Of a stretch of 64,000 nucleotides of DNA, positions 6,570 through 56,390 are shown one piece after another. Both the position numbers and the translations under genes were made by a program. Origin of the DNA: an uncultured Paracoccaceae bacterium (GTDB lineage Bacteria > Pseudomonadota > Alphaproteobacteria > Rhodobacterales > Rhodobacteraceae); assembly GCA_947488175.1 (NCBI GenBank), contig CANKYO010000006.1, positions 310,001-374,000 of the forward strand, in the 5' to 3' direction. Every line of letters begins with the position of its first letter. Position 1 is the stretch's first letter. Below the pieces are notes generated by a model. The model was not told the origin of the DNA. It did no database searches and worked only from the letters and a program-made list of their open reading frames with translations.

Positions 6570-6774
6570 GCAACGTTCGGTGGTGTTGCGCCGACCCCCC
6601 GGAATTGGCGGGCGGCCCTAACCACGCGAATCATCCGTTAACACTAGCGTTTCCTGCAAAATGGTCGGGCGGCATCGCGTCGGCAAAACGTCGGACTTGC
6701 GTCGGACCCCAGAGCGGCAATTTGCGGGATTAAGGCAGCGCACGGTGGAAGTGTGAATGTGGTGTTAATGATTT
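6570..6774 (+). repeat. Intergenic repeat element, copy A (11-bp-phased GTCGG boxes)
   Basis: This is the main content of the 540-bp gap 6487-7026, which has no convincing gene. Four blocks are shared with copy B at 45567: a 16-mer (GCAACGTTCGGTGGTG, 6570-6585), a 34-bp identical block at 6670-6703, GCAGCGCACGGTG at 6735-6747, and GTTAATGATTT at 6764-6774. Spacings to copy B differ by at most 3 bp. The 34-bp block contains GTCGGCAAAAC and GTCGGACTTGC and is followed at once by GTCGGACCCC, so GTCGG recurs every 11 bp. The rest of the gap to 7026 shows only a 16-mer shared with 20780-20795 (CACAGGCTGCTTTGCG at 6820). Confidence 0.85.
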
Positions 6775-7026
6775 GTTGCAATTGCAGGCCGAGGATTTCG
6801 ACGCGACCTCTGGAAAATACACAGGCTGCTTTGCGGGACGGAGCGCTCTTTCGCTGCGGCTGCGCCAACGGCCGCTTTCAAGTATTTCTCCCAGCGAACT
6901 CGCCAAAATTGCAATTTGGCAGATGCCTATTAGTCTTTGGTATTATTCTGCGCAAGCTGGGCCAACAGGTCGAACGAAGTGTCAGAGATCAGAGTTATGG
7001 GGTGCCGTCCTTCGTTGCGTGCAGGC

Positions 7027-20439: not shown

Positions 20440-20606
20440 GTTTGGGCCTGAGAGATTCACCACCTTGGTGGCTTGCTCCTCCGGCGGGCCAAATGGCCAC
20501 TCTGCGGCGTGTTGCACCCCAACCGGTCCATTTGCCTGAGAGTGACCGGGGCGGTTGCTCCTTCGGCGACGGACACTTGCGAATCGGGCCGTTCTCTCCC
20601 GGTCGG
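20440..20606 (-). ncRNA. Tandem glycine riboswitch
   Basis: Read on the minus strand there are two glycine aptamers in a row. The first spans about 20606-20530 and holds GGGAGAGA, GGAGCAA and the hallmark CACTCTCAGGCA. The second spans about 20512-20440 and holds GGAGGAGCAA and TGAATCTCTCAGGC. The short linker between them matches the classic cooperative gcvT-type arrangement. Between the second aptamer and the dadA start lie a small GCGC hairpin and the AGGAG ribosome-binding site, without a U-tract, so control of translation initiation is more likely than termination. Confidence 0.93.
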
Positions 20607-20822
20607 CGTGTTTCCTATGGGAAACCTCATAGACGGATTGCGGCATAACGCAACAAAAATTAATCGGTCCGATATTGATGTTTATTCATCTGCAACTCCG
20701 CCACATCGCGCCGAGGGCAGCTTCCCAAAAGGCCATGAAGTGAGACCCGGTTCGCTTCCAACGGACTGTCCAAAACTAACACAGGCTGCTTTGCGCGACA
20801 AAAGCCGCCTTATGCAGTTGCG

Positions 20823-44050: not shown

Positions 44051-45565
44051 ATGACTATTCTCAACATCAATGCCTTGGGCGTGACCCTGGGCGAACCGCT
44101 TTTCACTGACCTCAACCTGACAATTTCCAAAGGCGACCGTATCGGGCTTGTCGCCGCCAATGGGCGGGGTAAGTCGACCCTGATGGGGTGTATTGCGGGC
44201 ACGTTCGACCCGACCACTGGTGGCATCGCCCGTGCGCGCGGCCTGCGCGTGGGGCATGTGGAGCAGAACGTGTCGGATGATGCGCTGGAGAAAACCCTTT
44301 ACGATCATGTGCTTGCCGCCCTGCCCGCCGAACAGGCCGATTACGAAAGCTGGCGGGTCGATGTGGTGCTGGACGATCTGAAGGTGCCTTATGACCTGCA
44401 GCACAAACCGCTGAAGGATCTCAGCGGCGGCTGGCAGCGCACCGCCCTACTGGCCGCCGCCTGGATCACCGAACCGGACCTTTTGCTGCTCGACGAACCG
44501 ACCAACCATCTGGACCTGCACCGCATCGGATTGCTGCAGGACTGGCTGGGCGGCCTGCCCCGCGATGTGCCCGCCGTGATCATTAGCCATGACCGGGCGT
44601 TCCTGGATGCGGTGACCAATCGGACCTTGTTTTTAAGGGCAGAGCGGTCGCGTGACTTTGCCTTGCCATTTACCCGCGCGCGGGCAGCGCTGGATGAGGC
44701 GGACGCGGCTGATGAACGCCGCTTTGCCAATGATCTCAACAAGGCCAGCCAATTGCGCAAACAGGCGGCCAAGCTGAAGAATATCGGGATCAATTCCGGT
44801 TCTGACCTGTTGATCACCAAGACCAAGCAACTGACCGAACGGGCCGCCAAGATTGAGGCGGCGGCCAAGCCGGCCCATCACGAACGCGGCGCGGGCGATA
44901 TCCGGTTGGCCAATAGCGGGACCCATGCCAAGGCGCTGATTGCGCTGGATGATGTGGCGGTGGAAACGCCGGATGGGCGGCAGCTTTACACAACCGGGAA
45001 GAAATGGATCAGCCCGGGCGATCGGATTGTTCTGCTGGGCACGAATGGCACCGGCAAGACGCGGCTGATCAACATGATCCATCGCGCTATTGCGAGCGAT
45101 GTGGCTGGCATCAAATGCGCGCCGACCCTTGTGGAAGGCTATTCGGATCAACATCTTAACCAGCTTTCGGATGGCGACACCCCGATGACCGCAGTCGCCG
45201 GACAGTTCGATGTGGGCGACCAGCGGGCGCGCGGTCTGCTGGCGGGGGCCGGGGTGACTATCCAGATGCAGGACACGAAAATCGGCGCGTTGTCCGGCGG
45301 GCAGAAGGCCCGGCTCGCGATGCTGATCCTGCGCCTGCAACAGCCGAATTTCTACCTGCTGGATGAGCCGACAAACCATCTGGATATCGAAGGACAGGAG
45401 GCGCTGGAGGAGGAATTGATCGCCCATGGGGCCGCCTGCCTGCTGGTCAGCCATGACCGGAGTTTTCTGCGAAACGTGGGCAACCGGTTCTGGGAAATCC
45501 GGGGAAAGCGGTTGGTCGAGGTCGATGATCCGGAGGCATTTCTGGCGTCCGAAATGGCGGGGTGA
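44051..45565 (+). CDS. ABC-F family ATPase (Uup/EttA-like)
   Basis: 504 residues with two ABC modules on one chain and no membrane helices. Module 1: Walker A GLVAANGRGKSTLMG near 38, signature LSGGWQRTALLAA, Walker B LLLLDEPTNHLD. Linker of about 80 residues, helical and charged (FANDLNKASQLRKQAAKLKN), the arm that reaches into the ribosome in this family. Module 2: LLGTNGTGKTRLI, LSGGQKARLAML and FYLLDEPTNHLD. ABC-F proteins act on translating ribosomes or give antibiotic protection. The exact subfamily cannot be set. It is directly followed by repeat element copy B. Confidence 0.92.
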   Translation: MTILNINALGVTLGEPLFTDLNLTISKGDRIGLVAANGRGKSTLMGCIAGTFDPTTGGIARARGLRVGHVEQNVSDDALEKTLYDHVLAALPAEQADYESWRVDVVLDDLKVPYDLQHKPLKDLSGGWQRTALLAAAWITEPDLLLLDEPTNHLDLHRIGLLQDWLGGLPRDVPAVIISHDRAFLDAVTNRTLFLRAERSRDFALPFTRARAALDEADAADERRFANDLNKASQLRKQAAKLKNIGINSGSDLLITKTKQLTERAAKIEAAAKPAHHERGAGDIRLANSGTHAKALIALDDVAVETPDGRQLYTTGKKWISPGDRIVLLGTNGTGKTRLINMIHRAIASDVAGIKCAPTLVEGYSDQHLNQLSDGDTPMTAVAGQFDVGDQRARGLLAGAGVTIQMQDTKIGALSGGQKARLAMLILRLQQPNFYLLDEPTNHLDIEGQEALEEELIAHGAACLLVSHDRSFLRNVGNRFWEIRGKRLVEVDDPEAFLASEMAG

Positions 45566-45566
45566 G

Positions 45567-45768
45567 GCAACGTTCGGTGGTGCGGCACGGGTTCTGCAAC
45601 ACCCGGATTGGGCGAATCGACGCGAGGCCAGTTAGTATTGGGGTTTGGGGCAAAACGACCGGTCGGCATCGCGTCGGCAAAACGTCGGACTTGCGTCAGA
45701 CCCATTTGCCGGAATTTGACGGTTTAACGCAGCGCACGGTGCAAATGTGAAGGCCGCGTTAAGAATTT
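45567..45768 (+). repeat. Intergenic repeat element, copy B (11-bp-phased GTCGG boxes)
   Basis: Starts two bases after the ABC-F stop. Blocks: GCAACGTTCGGTGGTG at 45567-45582, a 34-bp block identical to copy A at 45664-45697, GCAGCGCACGGTG at 45729-45741 and GTTAAGAATTT at 45758-45768. Inter-block spacing is 97, 65 and 29 bp versus 100, 65 and 29 in copy A. The rest of the gap to 45903 holds a 44-codon frame from ATG 45798 (MGLVLRIHWTMTLFLIGGG) with no clear ribosome-binding site, which I do not call. Confidence 0.85.
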
Positions 45769-47985: not shown

Positions 47986-48060
47986 GGATGATTAGCTCAG
48001 CGGTAGAGCACTTCGTTGACATCGAAGGGGTCACTGGTTCGATCCCAGTATCGTCCACCA
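47986..48060 (+). tRNA. tRNA-Val (GAC)
   Basis: 75 bases including an encoded CCA. The acceptor stem GGATGAT pairs with ATCGTCC, the D arm is GCTCAGCGGTAGAGC, the anticodon stem CTTCG/CGAAG encloses TTGACAT with anticodon GAC, and the T arm contains GGTTCGATCC. All four arms fold cleanly. Confidence 0.97.
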
Positions 48061-54810: not shown

Positions 54811-55098
54811 CTACAGTCGCTGCACATCCATGCTCTGGTGAAGCACCCTGACCACCGTCACCGTCTCGTCATTCTCACGGAAGAACACCACATGGCGTCC
54901 GGTCAATGCGCGCCGCAGACCCCAGCCGACCTCTTCGGCTGAACGCGAAGCAACATCACCGGCTGCGATGCCCAGTATCCGCTCTTCCAGCATGGCGTCA
55001 TACGTGACGGCCTGCGCATAACCCCAATTTTCTTCCGTGTAGTCCCAGATATCGGCAATGTCGTTGATTGCGGCGCGGGCATACGCAAGCCGCTTCAC
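54811..55098 (-). CDS. parE: ParE/RelE-type toxin
   Basis: 95 residues of the ParE/RelE fold. Features: AYARAAINDIADIWDYTEEN at the N-terminus, the middle helix region QAVTYDAMLEERI, a beta-sheet with RRALTGRHVVFFREND, and VVRVLHQSMDVQRL at the end with the conserved R-V-L-H-x-S/R motif. ParE toxins poison gyrase, RelE relatives cut mRNA on ribosomes; the type cannot be set by eye. The start overlaps the antitoxin stop by four bases. Confidence 0.9.
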   Translation of the reverse strand: MKRLAYARAAINDIADIWDYTEENWGYAQAVTYDAMLEERILGIAAGDVASRSAEEVGWGLRRALTGRHVVFFRENDETVTVVRVLHQSMDVQRL

Positions 55099-55358
55099 TC
55101 AGCCACTTTCTGTTTGGCCTCATACGCCGCACGCTTCTGCGCACGAAAATCGTCCCAATCAAAGTCATCGGCAATGCCGCTTGCATCCCCTTCGTCAATC
55201 AAGGCCCGCAACCGCTCCAGCTTCGCCTCGCGCTCTTCCAGCAGCCGCAGCCCCGCGCGCACCACATCGCTGGCAGAGCTATAGCGCCCTTCCTTCACCT
55301 TCGTGTCGATGAACCCGGCAAAATGGTCCCCGAGTGAGACGGATGTGTTACGCGGCAT
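55095..55358 (-). CDS. parD: ParD-type antitoxin
   Basis: 87 residues from ATG 55358. The ribbon-helix-helix half is typical: MPRNTSVSLGDHFAGFIDTK and GRYSSASDVVRAGLRLLEER. The C-terminal tail (ALIDEGDASGIADDFDWDDF and following) is acidic and would wrap the toxin. AGAGGTC precedes the ATG on the minus strand. It binds its own promoter region, probably the gap 55359-55460, together with ParE. Confidence 0.92.
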   Translation of the reverse strand: MPRNTSVSLGDHFAGFIDTKVKEGRYSSASDVVRAGLRLLEEREAKLERLRALIDEGDASGIADDFDWDDFRAQKRAAYEAKQKVAE

Positions 55359-55469: not shown

Positions 55470-55546
55470 AAATCATTAACGCTTTCCTACCCGCCGAGTC
55501 TTTGGGGTCCGACGCTTTGCCGACGCAAGTCCGACGCAAATCCGAC
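55470..55546 (-). repeat. Intergenic repeat element, copy C (11-bp-phased GTCGG boxes)
   Basis: On the minus strand four GTCGG boxes follow at 11-bp steps: GTCGGATTTGC, GTCGGACTTGC, GTCGGCAAAGC and GTCGGACCCC, then GTTAATGATTT after 23 bases. Copies A and B have two and three boxes of the same kind and the same end motif, but copy C lacks their GCAGCGCACGGTG block and the first 16-mer. It ends just before the dehydrogenase stop at 55554. Confidence 0.8.
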
Positions 55547-55553
55547 AGCGGTT

Positions 55554-56390
55554 TTACGTCTTTTTCCGGTCATCCACGACGTTCATCCCCGCCAGCCCGC
55601 TTTGCCCCAGATCGACCGATGCAAACGGCCCCCCGTGGCACATATGGCCGGGGTCCTGGGGGTCCAGCGCGCCTGTCTCCGCCAGCACCTTTTCCGCGTA
55701 CACCTCCGCGTTGTCCTGCGGTCGGTAGCCCAGGAAACTGGCCTTGCTGTTATCCACCGGACACCGGTCATTATTGGACACCCCGTAGATCACCGAAAAC
55801 CCGGTCACAGGCGTGTCTACCGCCCGCTGCACCAGCTGCACTAAGTCATTGTATGACAAGTAAGAACCAAGCGCGCGGGCGTTGTTGACCTGGGCGCAGG
55901 ACAGGATGCGCAGATGCACCGATTCCAGCCCCCGTTTCTCCCAATACATGCGTCCCAGATCCTCCGTAAAACACTTCGCCAGCCCATAGAATGTGTCGGG
56001 CCTGTGGGGCACTTCGGTGTCGATGCATTCATTCTTGGGATACATGCCCACGGTGTGAATCGAACTGGCATAAACCACCCGCCGCGCCCCTGTTTTATAG
56101 GCCGCCTCCCACACATTATAAGACCCGATGAAATTCGGCCCCAGCAATTGTTCAAACGGCCCCTCATCCACAAAAGCCCCGAAATGTATAACCATTTCAG
56201 CACCTTGGATGATCGCCGCCATGTCATCCATGCTGGCCAGATCACCCTGCGCATAGGTCTCACCCGGATAAAGCGTGCCGATATCATCCACGATATCGGT
56301 CGACACCAGTTCATCGCACATCGCCGTCAACGGCTCGCGCAGATATGACCCCAGCCGCCCGGCGGCCCCTGTCAGGACGATTTTCTTCAT
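55554..56390 (-). CDS. NAD-dependent epimerase/dehydratase (uronate-dehydrogenase-like)
   Basis: 278-residue extended SDR. The cofactor motif VLTGAAGRLGSYLREPL opens it, ASSIHTVGMYP holds the catalytic serine, and FYGLAKCFTEDLGRMY the Tyr-x3-Lys pair near residue 140. The segment ILSCAQVNNARALGSYLSYN resembles uronate dehydrogenases, which oxidise hexuronates to lactones. Its start overlaps the upstream aldolase stop by four bases. Within this run it probably handles the last carbon product. The substrate is inferred only from similarity. Confidence 0.8.
   Translation of the reverse strand: MKKIVLTGAAGRLGSYLREPLTAMCDELVSTDIVDDIGTLYPGETYAQGDLASMDDMAAIIQGAEMVIHFGAFVDEGPFEQLLGPNFIGSYNVWEAAYKTGARRVVYASSIHTVGMYPKNECIDTEVPHRPDTFYGLAKCFTEDLGRMYWEKRGLESVHLRILSCAQVNNARALGSYLSYNDLVQLVQRAVDTPVTGFSVIYGVSNNDRCPVDNSKASFLGYRPQDNAEVYAEKVLAETGALDPQDPGHMCHGGPFASVDLGQSGLAGMNVVDDRKKT

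Follow-up and report, generated by a model that had tools for sequence, protein, structure and literature searches.

Arrays of short boxes in 11-bp phase are dispersed over the genome studied here and over those of some relatives. Their boxes are constrained, their orientation is biased, sites are orthologous between genomes, and at one orthologous site different lineages carry different boxes. Candidate binding sites on one face of the helix, GTTAA flanks, lasting positions, the strand bias and the lineage-specific spelling lead us to read the arrays as chromosomal landmarks, bound head to tail by a putative protein that has come to recognise different words in different lineages. We put the probability of this reading at about 0.5.

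The stretch analysed (64 kb, hereafter the window) lies on contig C6 of a 4.74-Mb draft genome, called G000, and holds copies A, B and C of the element (Table 1). When rechecked in the sequence, the block positions and spacings given in the initial annotation were as described. A and B have in common GCAACGTTCGGTGGT (at 6570 and 45567), 34 identical bases (6670 and 45664), GCAGCGCACGGTG (6735 and 45729) and GTTAA(T/G) (6764 and 45758), spaced 100/65/29 in A and 97/65/29 in B. The GTCGG-N6 units in 11-bp phase were found as well, although two boxes deviate, the first of A (GGCGG) and the last of B (GTCAG). With up to two mismatches, GTCGG(N6 GTCGG)2 matched six times in the window against 0.28 expected, and none of 100 shuffles reached six. 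Copy C is upstream of a ParD-type antitoxin gene (PF03693); the ORF after this gene, of 95 aa, may encode its toxin (together 54811-55358, minus strand).

Table 1. Copies A, B and C of the element and their parts in the window.
Feature	Position	Strand	Remark
Copy A, long form	6570..6775	+	sequence reading
Copy A, block 1, GCAACGTTCGGTGG / GTGTTGCGCC	6570..6592	+	recurs among long-form copies
Copy A, block 2, CGAATCATCCGTTAAC	6627..6642	+	GTTAA starts 31 bp ahead of first box; sequence reading
Copy A, four boxes in 11-bp phase	6668..6705	+	GGCGG, GTCGG, GTCGG, GTCGG
Copy A, ATTAA, then GCAGCGCACGGTG	6729..6747	+	ATTAA 23 bp past array; compare GTTAA at +23/+24 in public genomes
Copy A, block 5, TGTGAATG..GTTAATGATTTG	6752..6775	+	sequence reading
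Copy B, long form	45567..45768	+	starts immediately 3' of an ABC ATPase gene (44051-45565, stop codon included)
Copy B, GTTAG	45631..45635	+	31 bp ahead of first box
Copy B, four boxes	45662..45699	+	GTCGG three times, then GTCAG
Copy B, TTTAA, then GCAGCGCACGGTG	45723..45741	+	TTTAA 23 bp past array
Copy C, short form	55470..55546	-	between stop of epimerase-like gene (55554-56390, -) and start of ParD-type antitoxin gene (55095-55358, -)
Copy C, four GTCGG boxes in 11-bp phase, then ACCCC	55509..55546	-
Copy C, GTTAA	55476..55480	-	28 bp past array

The three copies first noticed are real, but they are only three of 90 arrays read in this genome. A scan of G000 with at most one mismatch gave 197 matches, which overlap within single copies, versus one for a reversed-pattern control, and GTCGGN6GTCGGACC occurs exactly at 83 places, on contigs C1-C9 and C11-C15. 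The stretches fetched contained 92 arrays, 80 of them with exactly four boxes; two were dropped (imperfect boxes; two boxes only) and 90 kept. On the GTCGG strand the core reads (GTCGG N6)3 GTCGG, followed by ACC in 83 of the 90 copies, and successive GTCGG boxes up to 25 bp apart are exactly 11 bp apart in 256 of 263 cases. Two orders of units are common, with spacers CATCGC-CAAAAC-ACTTGC, or CATCGC followed by ATTTGC or ACTTGC and then CAAAAC. By a simple motif rule, 59 copies are of a long form and 31 of a short one. The long form covers about 200-240 bp, with GCAACGTTCGGTGG (or a variant) and CGAATCATnnGTTAA upstream of the boxes, and TTAA..GCGCGCGGTG, then TGTGAATGCGGTGTTAAGGTTT, downstream. 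The two copies at locus L043 (contig C2, near 7.8 and 9.3 kb) lie 1.5 kb from each other in one orientation and have a common sequence after the boxes; one of them is without the upstream half, a possible local duplication or insertion.

The initial annotation had allowed that, were there three copies only and no conservation elsewhere, they would be chance or recent duplicates. Other genomes do contain the array: an exact match was found in 43 of 295 genomes of the family, and at least five matches in 21. One of these (G132) looks like an unrelated tandem repeat and was left out, leaving 20 array-rich genomes, with about 20 to 90 arrays each among those listed. A scan of genome contigs gave at least 112 stretches with the array pattern. 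Among the 80 matches listed, four are labelled only Alphaproteobacteria and one Spirochaetales; as far as the titles of the others can be placed, we take these contigs to belong to roseobacter genera and Rhodobacteraceae (Roseovarius, Shimia, Salinihabitans, Pseudooceanicola, Boseongicola, Silicimonas and others). In the complete genome of Pseudohalocynthiibacter aestuariivivens (NZ_CP049037.1, reached via locus L306) all 35 matches, at 22 places, are on contig C1, with none for the control. That every relative has arrays was rejected: no exact three-box array was present in 400 kb of G003, whereas random samples of G269 and G035 do have arrays. The GTCGG array in the metagenome-assembled genome labelled Spirochaetales (L322, JAFGXN010000069.1) may be due to chance, transfer or mis-binning. 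A search of open-access journals, which included the box spelling, gave no description of the element among the matches listed.

The GTTAA motif seen beside the boxes of A and C recurs in these relatives. Around 112 arrays from public genomes, in which the commonest unit is GTCGGTATcAC, GTTAA occurs 0.40 times per array upstream and 0.49 times downstream, versus a background of 0.025 per 80 bp. It peaks at -31/-32 (24 of 45 upstream cases), so that the offset found in copy A is also the commonest in other genera, and at +23/+24 (22 of 55 downstream cases). Of the causes considered in the initial annotation, protein binding fits best: the 11-bp phasing is strict, boxes are kept while spacers drift, and paired bases show no covariation beyond one unit swap. 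Four candidate binding sites, one per 11-bp unit and arranged head to tail, would lie on one face of the helix, often with GTTAA motifs on either side, and a sequence-specific protein would bind the array, perhaps cooperatively.

Selection on structure, suggested at the outset as another cause, was not borne out for RNA. No covarying helix was detected among the four-box copies, 53 of them long and 29 short, and folding of 30 long copies was weak (mean z of -0.46 and -0.95). A hairpin just upstream of the boxes, hinted at by eye in a few copies, had no covariation; an apparent helix between spacers 2 and 3 proved to be an association due to the two unit orders (types I and II), equally strong in adjacent columns. 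Neither a terminator-like site (GC-rich hairpin and T run) nor a promoter-like one was found around copy A. At gathering thresholds, Rfam had no match at A, B or C, and in the window it gave only a tRNA and a glycine riboswitch. The former is tRNA-Val (anticodon gac, 47986-48060), the latter an aptamer at 20514-20611 on the minus strand (RF00504, 63.5 bits). An RNA element or terminator in 3' untranslated regions would agree with the preceding gene, which is co-oriented in 54 of the 90 G000 copies and often ends about 95-105 bp before the boxes, where the long form starts. However, the preceding gene has the opposite orientation in the other 36, and with no helix covariation, weak folding, no Rfam match for the three window copies and no terminator around copy A, we regard such an element as very improbable.

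By a simple gene caller of our own, 88 of the 90 G000 copies are intergenic. The 87 gaps that bear an element comprise 48 codirectional, 25 convergent and 14 divergent ones, versus 127, 36 and 84 among the 247 gaps of at least 60 bp that bear none; divergent gaps, where promoters lie, are depleted of elements (P=0.0015) and convergent gaps enriched (P=0.006). An array can also sit inside coding sequence, since in G269 (L167) and G217 (L185), which belong to two genera, one lies in frame and antisense within the variable linker of a purL-like gene, presumably purL itself to judge by its sequence. The protein there reads ..PTQYRRDTDVI..; in alignment, the G000 linker is three residues shorter and without the array.

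These positions bear on whether the arrays are sites of an ordinary transcription regulator of the OmpR/PhoB type, with a large regulon. Such a regulator would account for 11-bp head-to-tail repeats and for some sites being kept beside the same gene. It would not lead one to expect the depletion of divergent promoter gaps, the enrichment of convergent ones or the array inside the purL-like gene. Nor is a common theme evident among the neighbours looked at: two were identified as chorismate mutase and a nitrogenase-like oxidoreductase, and from sequence we take others to be hisH, the small subunit of glutamate synthase and a transporter of branched-chain amino acids. We therefore consider a regulon improbable.

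The copies are old, and their sites are inherited. Pairwise identity among long four-box copies of G000 averages 0.63 and reaches at most 0.81, which leaves no recent copy among them. Of 30 arrays read in the congener G294, 25 have a neighbour that also adjoins a G000 array, with side and strand in agreement (9 of them at both flanks, 16 at one); inconsistent neighbour matches were also seen in 4 of the 30. One pair (L243), with short matches inside the element, was dropped. Among the remaining 24, two (L238 and L258) may be different positions, being about 450 bp further from the common gene in one genome, and some arrays have three boxes only; all were compared over the same 38 bp. Mismatch was 0.048 in the boxes and 0.458 in the spacers, versus 0.464 for non-orthologous spacers. 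Within each genome spacer mismatch was lower (0.338 and 0.385), and 40 of 48 arrays had their nearest neighbours solely in their own genome. Flanks of paired copies were only slightly closer than those of unrelated copies, taken from one set of mismatched pairs (0.68 versus 0.63 upstream, 0.67 versus 0.64 downstream). These comparisons of boxes, spacers and flanks thus point to inherited sites with a genome-specific spelling.

Beyond the genus, 47 arrays of G142, G035, G269, G242, G210 and G217 included three that matched a G000 array on both sides and five on one, some of the latter perhaps through paralogues, with inconsistent matches in 7 of the 47. A mixed set of 12 arrays (G064, G282, G294) gave five matches, one or more of them at a site already counted for G294, and none of 25 arrays from few-copy genomes matched a G000 site (inconsistent matches in 7 of the 25). 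When flanking proteins were clustered over 326 arrays, sites common to three or four genomes appeared; side and strand agreed at many of these sites and differed at some.

The strongest rival to the landmark reading is a non-autonomous mobile element, REP- or MITE-like, inserted preferentially into the lagging-strand template, which would by itself give an orientation bias, and later homogenised. The copies are numerous and scattered between genes, they come in long and short forms, and they have a strand bias, a genome-specific consensus and a high turnover between genera, all as expected of such an element. Y1_Tnp (the RAYT or REP transposase family) had no match in G000, however, and was matched in only three of the 20 array-rich genomes (G055, G064 and G151); given its absence from the other 17, an association with RAYT was rejected. 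Terminal inverted repeats were found in none of A, B and C. Among 72,556 plasmid records blastn found no match to copy B, a query with the G000 spelling only. Just two viral contigs (L407 and L408, IMG/VR) had the array pattern, and a phage or plasmid origin was discarded on these results. Further, the boxes stay while the flanks are nearly saturated, and arrays that occupy one orthologous site are spelled differently (see below). The recent mobile element offered in the initial annotation is not supported: there is no near-identical long-form pair, 24 of the 30 congener arrays are paired here, and several sites are common to genera. With copies old, positions lasting, boxes constrained and spelling changed in place, we hold a mobile origin to be less likely than landmarks, and unlikely in itself.

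Orientation was measured against third-codon-position GC skew, corrected for the coding strand, in the stretch fetched around each array. The GTCGG strand is the local leading (skew-positive) strand for 74 of the 90 G000 arrays, or 71 of 90 under another ORF rule. In G269, a single 3.6-Mb contig, this holds for 34 of 36 arrays, every second one of 71 loci (those among the matches listed, part of 111 matches), and for 37 of 40 once four loci chosen as departing from the arm pattern are added. After three public loci had been dropped beforehand (two viral, one on the Spirochaetales contig), 96 of 113 public-genome arrays were leading, and 57 of 59 where local skew exceeded 0.1. Seven other sets pooled gave 66 of 76, and 38 of 38 above the same skew; few-copy genomes gave 17 of 26.

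The agreement is with local skew, for it falls to 59 of 90 when the G000 skew is smoothed over 120 kb, and to 44 of 71 when fixed replichore arms are used in G269 (terminus at 0.985 Mb, origin at 2.5 Mb). A strict two-arm polarity was dropped for local skew in view of local sign changes; orientation in G035 is also without a simple two-arm pattern. On contig C1 of G269, for example near 0.62, 1.15, 1.33 and 1.70 Mb, the sign of the local skew is reversed inside a replichore, and the arrays flip too; these places are possible inversion scars. Inversions would have carried skew and element together.

Base composition can produce such a bias: by itself it would make a motif with an excess of eight G over C leading in 70-83% of cases. 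A stricter composition estimate was exceeded in G269 (P=0.03) and by the strongly skewed loci of G000 (40 of 43, P=0.008), but not by the G000 copies as a whole (P=0.17), the public-genome loci (P=0.30) or the strongly skewed ones among these (P=0.11). A milder estimate was exceeded by each of these sets (P=0.002-0.05). The orientation bias is real, yet it may be largely compositional, and a functional need for direction is not secure. Since polarity beyond composition is not secured, our confidence is lowered both in the landmark reading and in the directional system considered below.

The spelling of the boxes differs between lineages. In G211, the reversed control itself had 74 matches, which turned out to be GGCTG arrays at 11 bp. 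Fifteen of them were read, 13 with four boxes and two with five, and the GGCTG strand was leading in 12 (P=0.035). One array (L468) lies on the antisense strand, 29 bp before the start of the chorismate mutase gene (family PF01817, as shown on a relative in contig L404). In the same orientation, GTCGG arrays lie 25-39 bp upstream of this start in G035, G217, G287, G158 and L404, and, by their coordinates, GTCGG arrays of G269, G176, G180, G080 and G266 occupy this place as well and are oriented alike. The other 14 G211 arrays had no convincing site in common with the loci compared.

A chorismate mutase gene is present in 289 of the 295 genomes, and 30 of its loci were scanned without a preset word. 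Period-11 chains were found at five: GTATGG in G049 (four units) and G145 (three units), ATGCACA in G032 (four units), CGTGCAC in G200 (three units) and GTCGG in G266. Background windows had such chains in 12 of 2580 cases, or 0.14 expected in 30 loci (P=3e-7). Period 12 was found at three loci, period 9 at two and the other periods tried at none; the scan gave no period-11 chain at the other 25 loci, that of G000 included. Outside G211, GTATGG, ATGCACA and CGTGCAC have the support of one site each. Hybrid arrays, with GTATGG as the in-phase box after the last GTCGG, occurred in 3 of 90 arrays of G000, 3 of 7 of G035 and 2 of 21 of G210 and G217, and in none of 112 public-genome arrays, 18 of G269, 7 of G242 and 4 of G142.

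Changes of spelling in place would also be expected if the box were a DNA-uptake or recombination signal, spread and homogenised by biased uptake or recombination, whose dialect genomes switch; the lineage-specific spelling at an orthologous site and the concerted spacers are what such a drive should leave. Uptake signals do not need four-unit arrays, however, and here there are only tens of copies per genome, in long arrays of four units. We find this explanation distinctly improbable.

Most arrays are intergenic, their positions persist within a genus and in part from genus to genus, and their GTCGG strand is usually the leading one. Under the landmark reading, the protein might use them for chromosome organisation or segregation, or for the traffic of replication forks and transcription. 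The recognition word would change between lineages and the sites of the genome follow, dozens of them being rewritten either by selection site by site or by conversion. More tentatively, the Rhodobacteraceae may possess a directional address system in which tetrads stay while the code word (GTCGG, GGCTG, GTATGG, ATGCACA or CGTGCAC) changes, a putative dedicated reader and dozens of sites being rewritten together, and which would be read along the direction of replication; we think this possible rather than probable. Bacterial chromosomes are marked for segregation by short conserved words. Arrays that keep their positions while their words change would, if the reading is true, be landmarks of a new kind. 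They would imply a DNA-reading protein whose specificity shifts and is followed by dozens of sites, a natural experiment on protein-DNA co-evolution, and would offer a handle on the chromosome organisation of these mostly marine alphaproteobacteria.

Several known systems resemble the element in part. REP sequences and BIMEs, which go with RAYT, are dispersed, intergenic, mosaic and fewer in promoter gaps, as the present element is; their units are palindromic, whereas here the units are direct 11-bp repeats, the copies are old and the positions last. The parS, matS, SlmA and Noc sites are dispersed protein sites that organise the chromosome. Those sites are short palindromes, while the present element, dispersed too and with a presumed function, is a head-to-tail tetrad of lineage-specific spelling. 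Direct repeats of 11 bp are typical of response regulators of the OmpR/PhoB type; the arrays share this head-to-tail arrangement but have four units, tens of copies and no preference for promoters. In the Neisseriaceae, dialects of the DNA uptake sequence change spelling genome-wide, without arrays and with far more copies per genome; the change of spelling by lineage is alike, the arrays and the far fewer copies are not.

The likeness to FtsK-orienting polar sequences (KOPS, GGGNAGGG) and architecture-imparting sequences (AIMS) lies in being G-rich, mostly on the leading strand, directed towards the terminus and chromosome-wide. According to the excerpt available of a 2026 paper (PMC13342612), the polarity of GGGNAGGG has been mapped on replicons of strains including Cereibacter and Paracoccus. 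Identity with KOPS was rejected, because the boxes are GTCGG and others, and canonical KOPS words are found separately in the same stretches. KOPS is a single 8-bp word, present 136-201 times per Mb in the stretches read, with leading to lagging ratios of 49:27 and 84:28, whereas the arrays treated here span about 40 to 240 bp, occur about 20 times per Mb and change their spelling.
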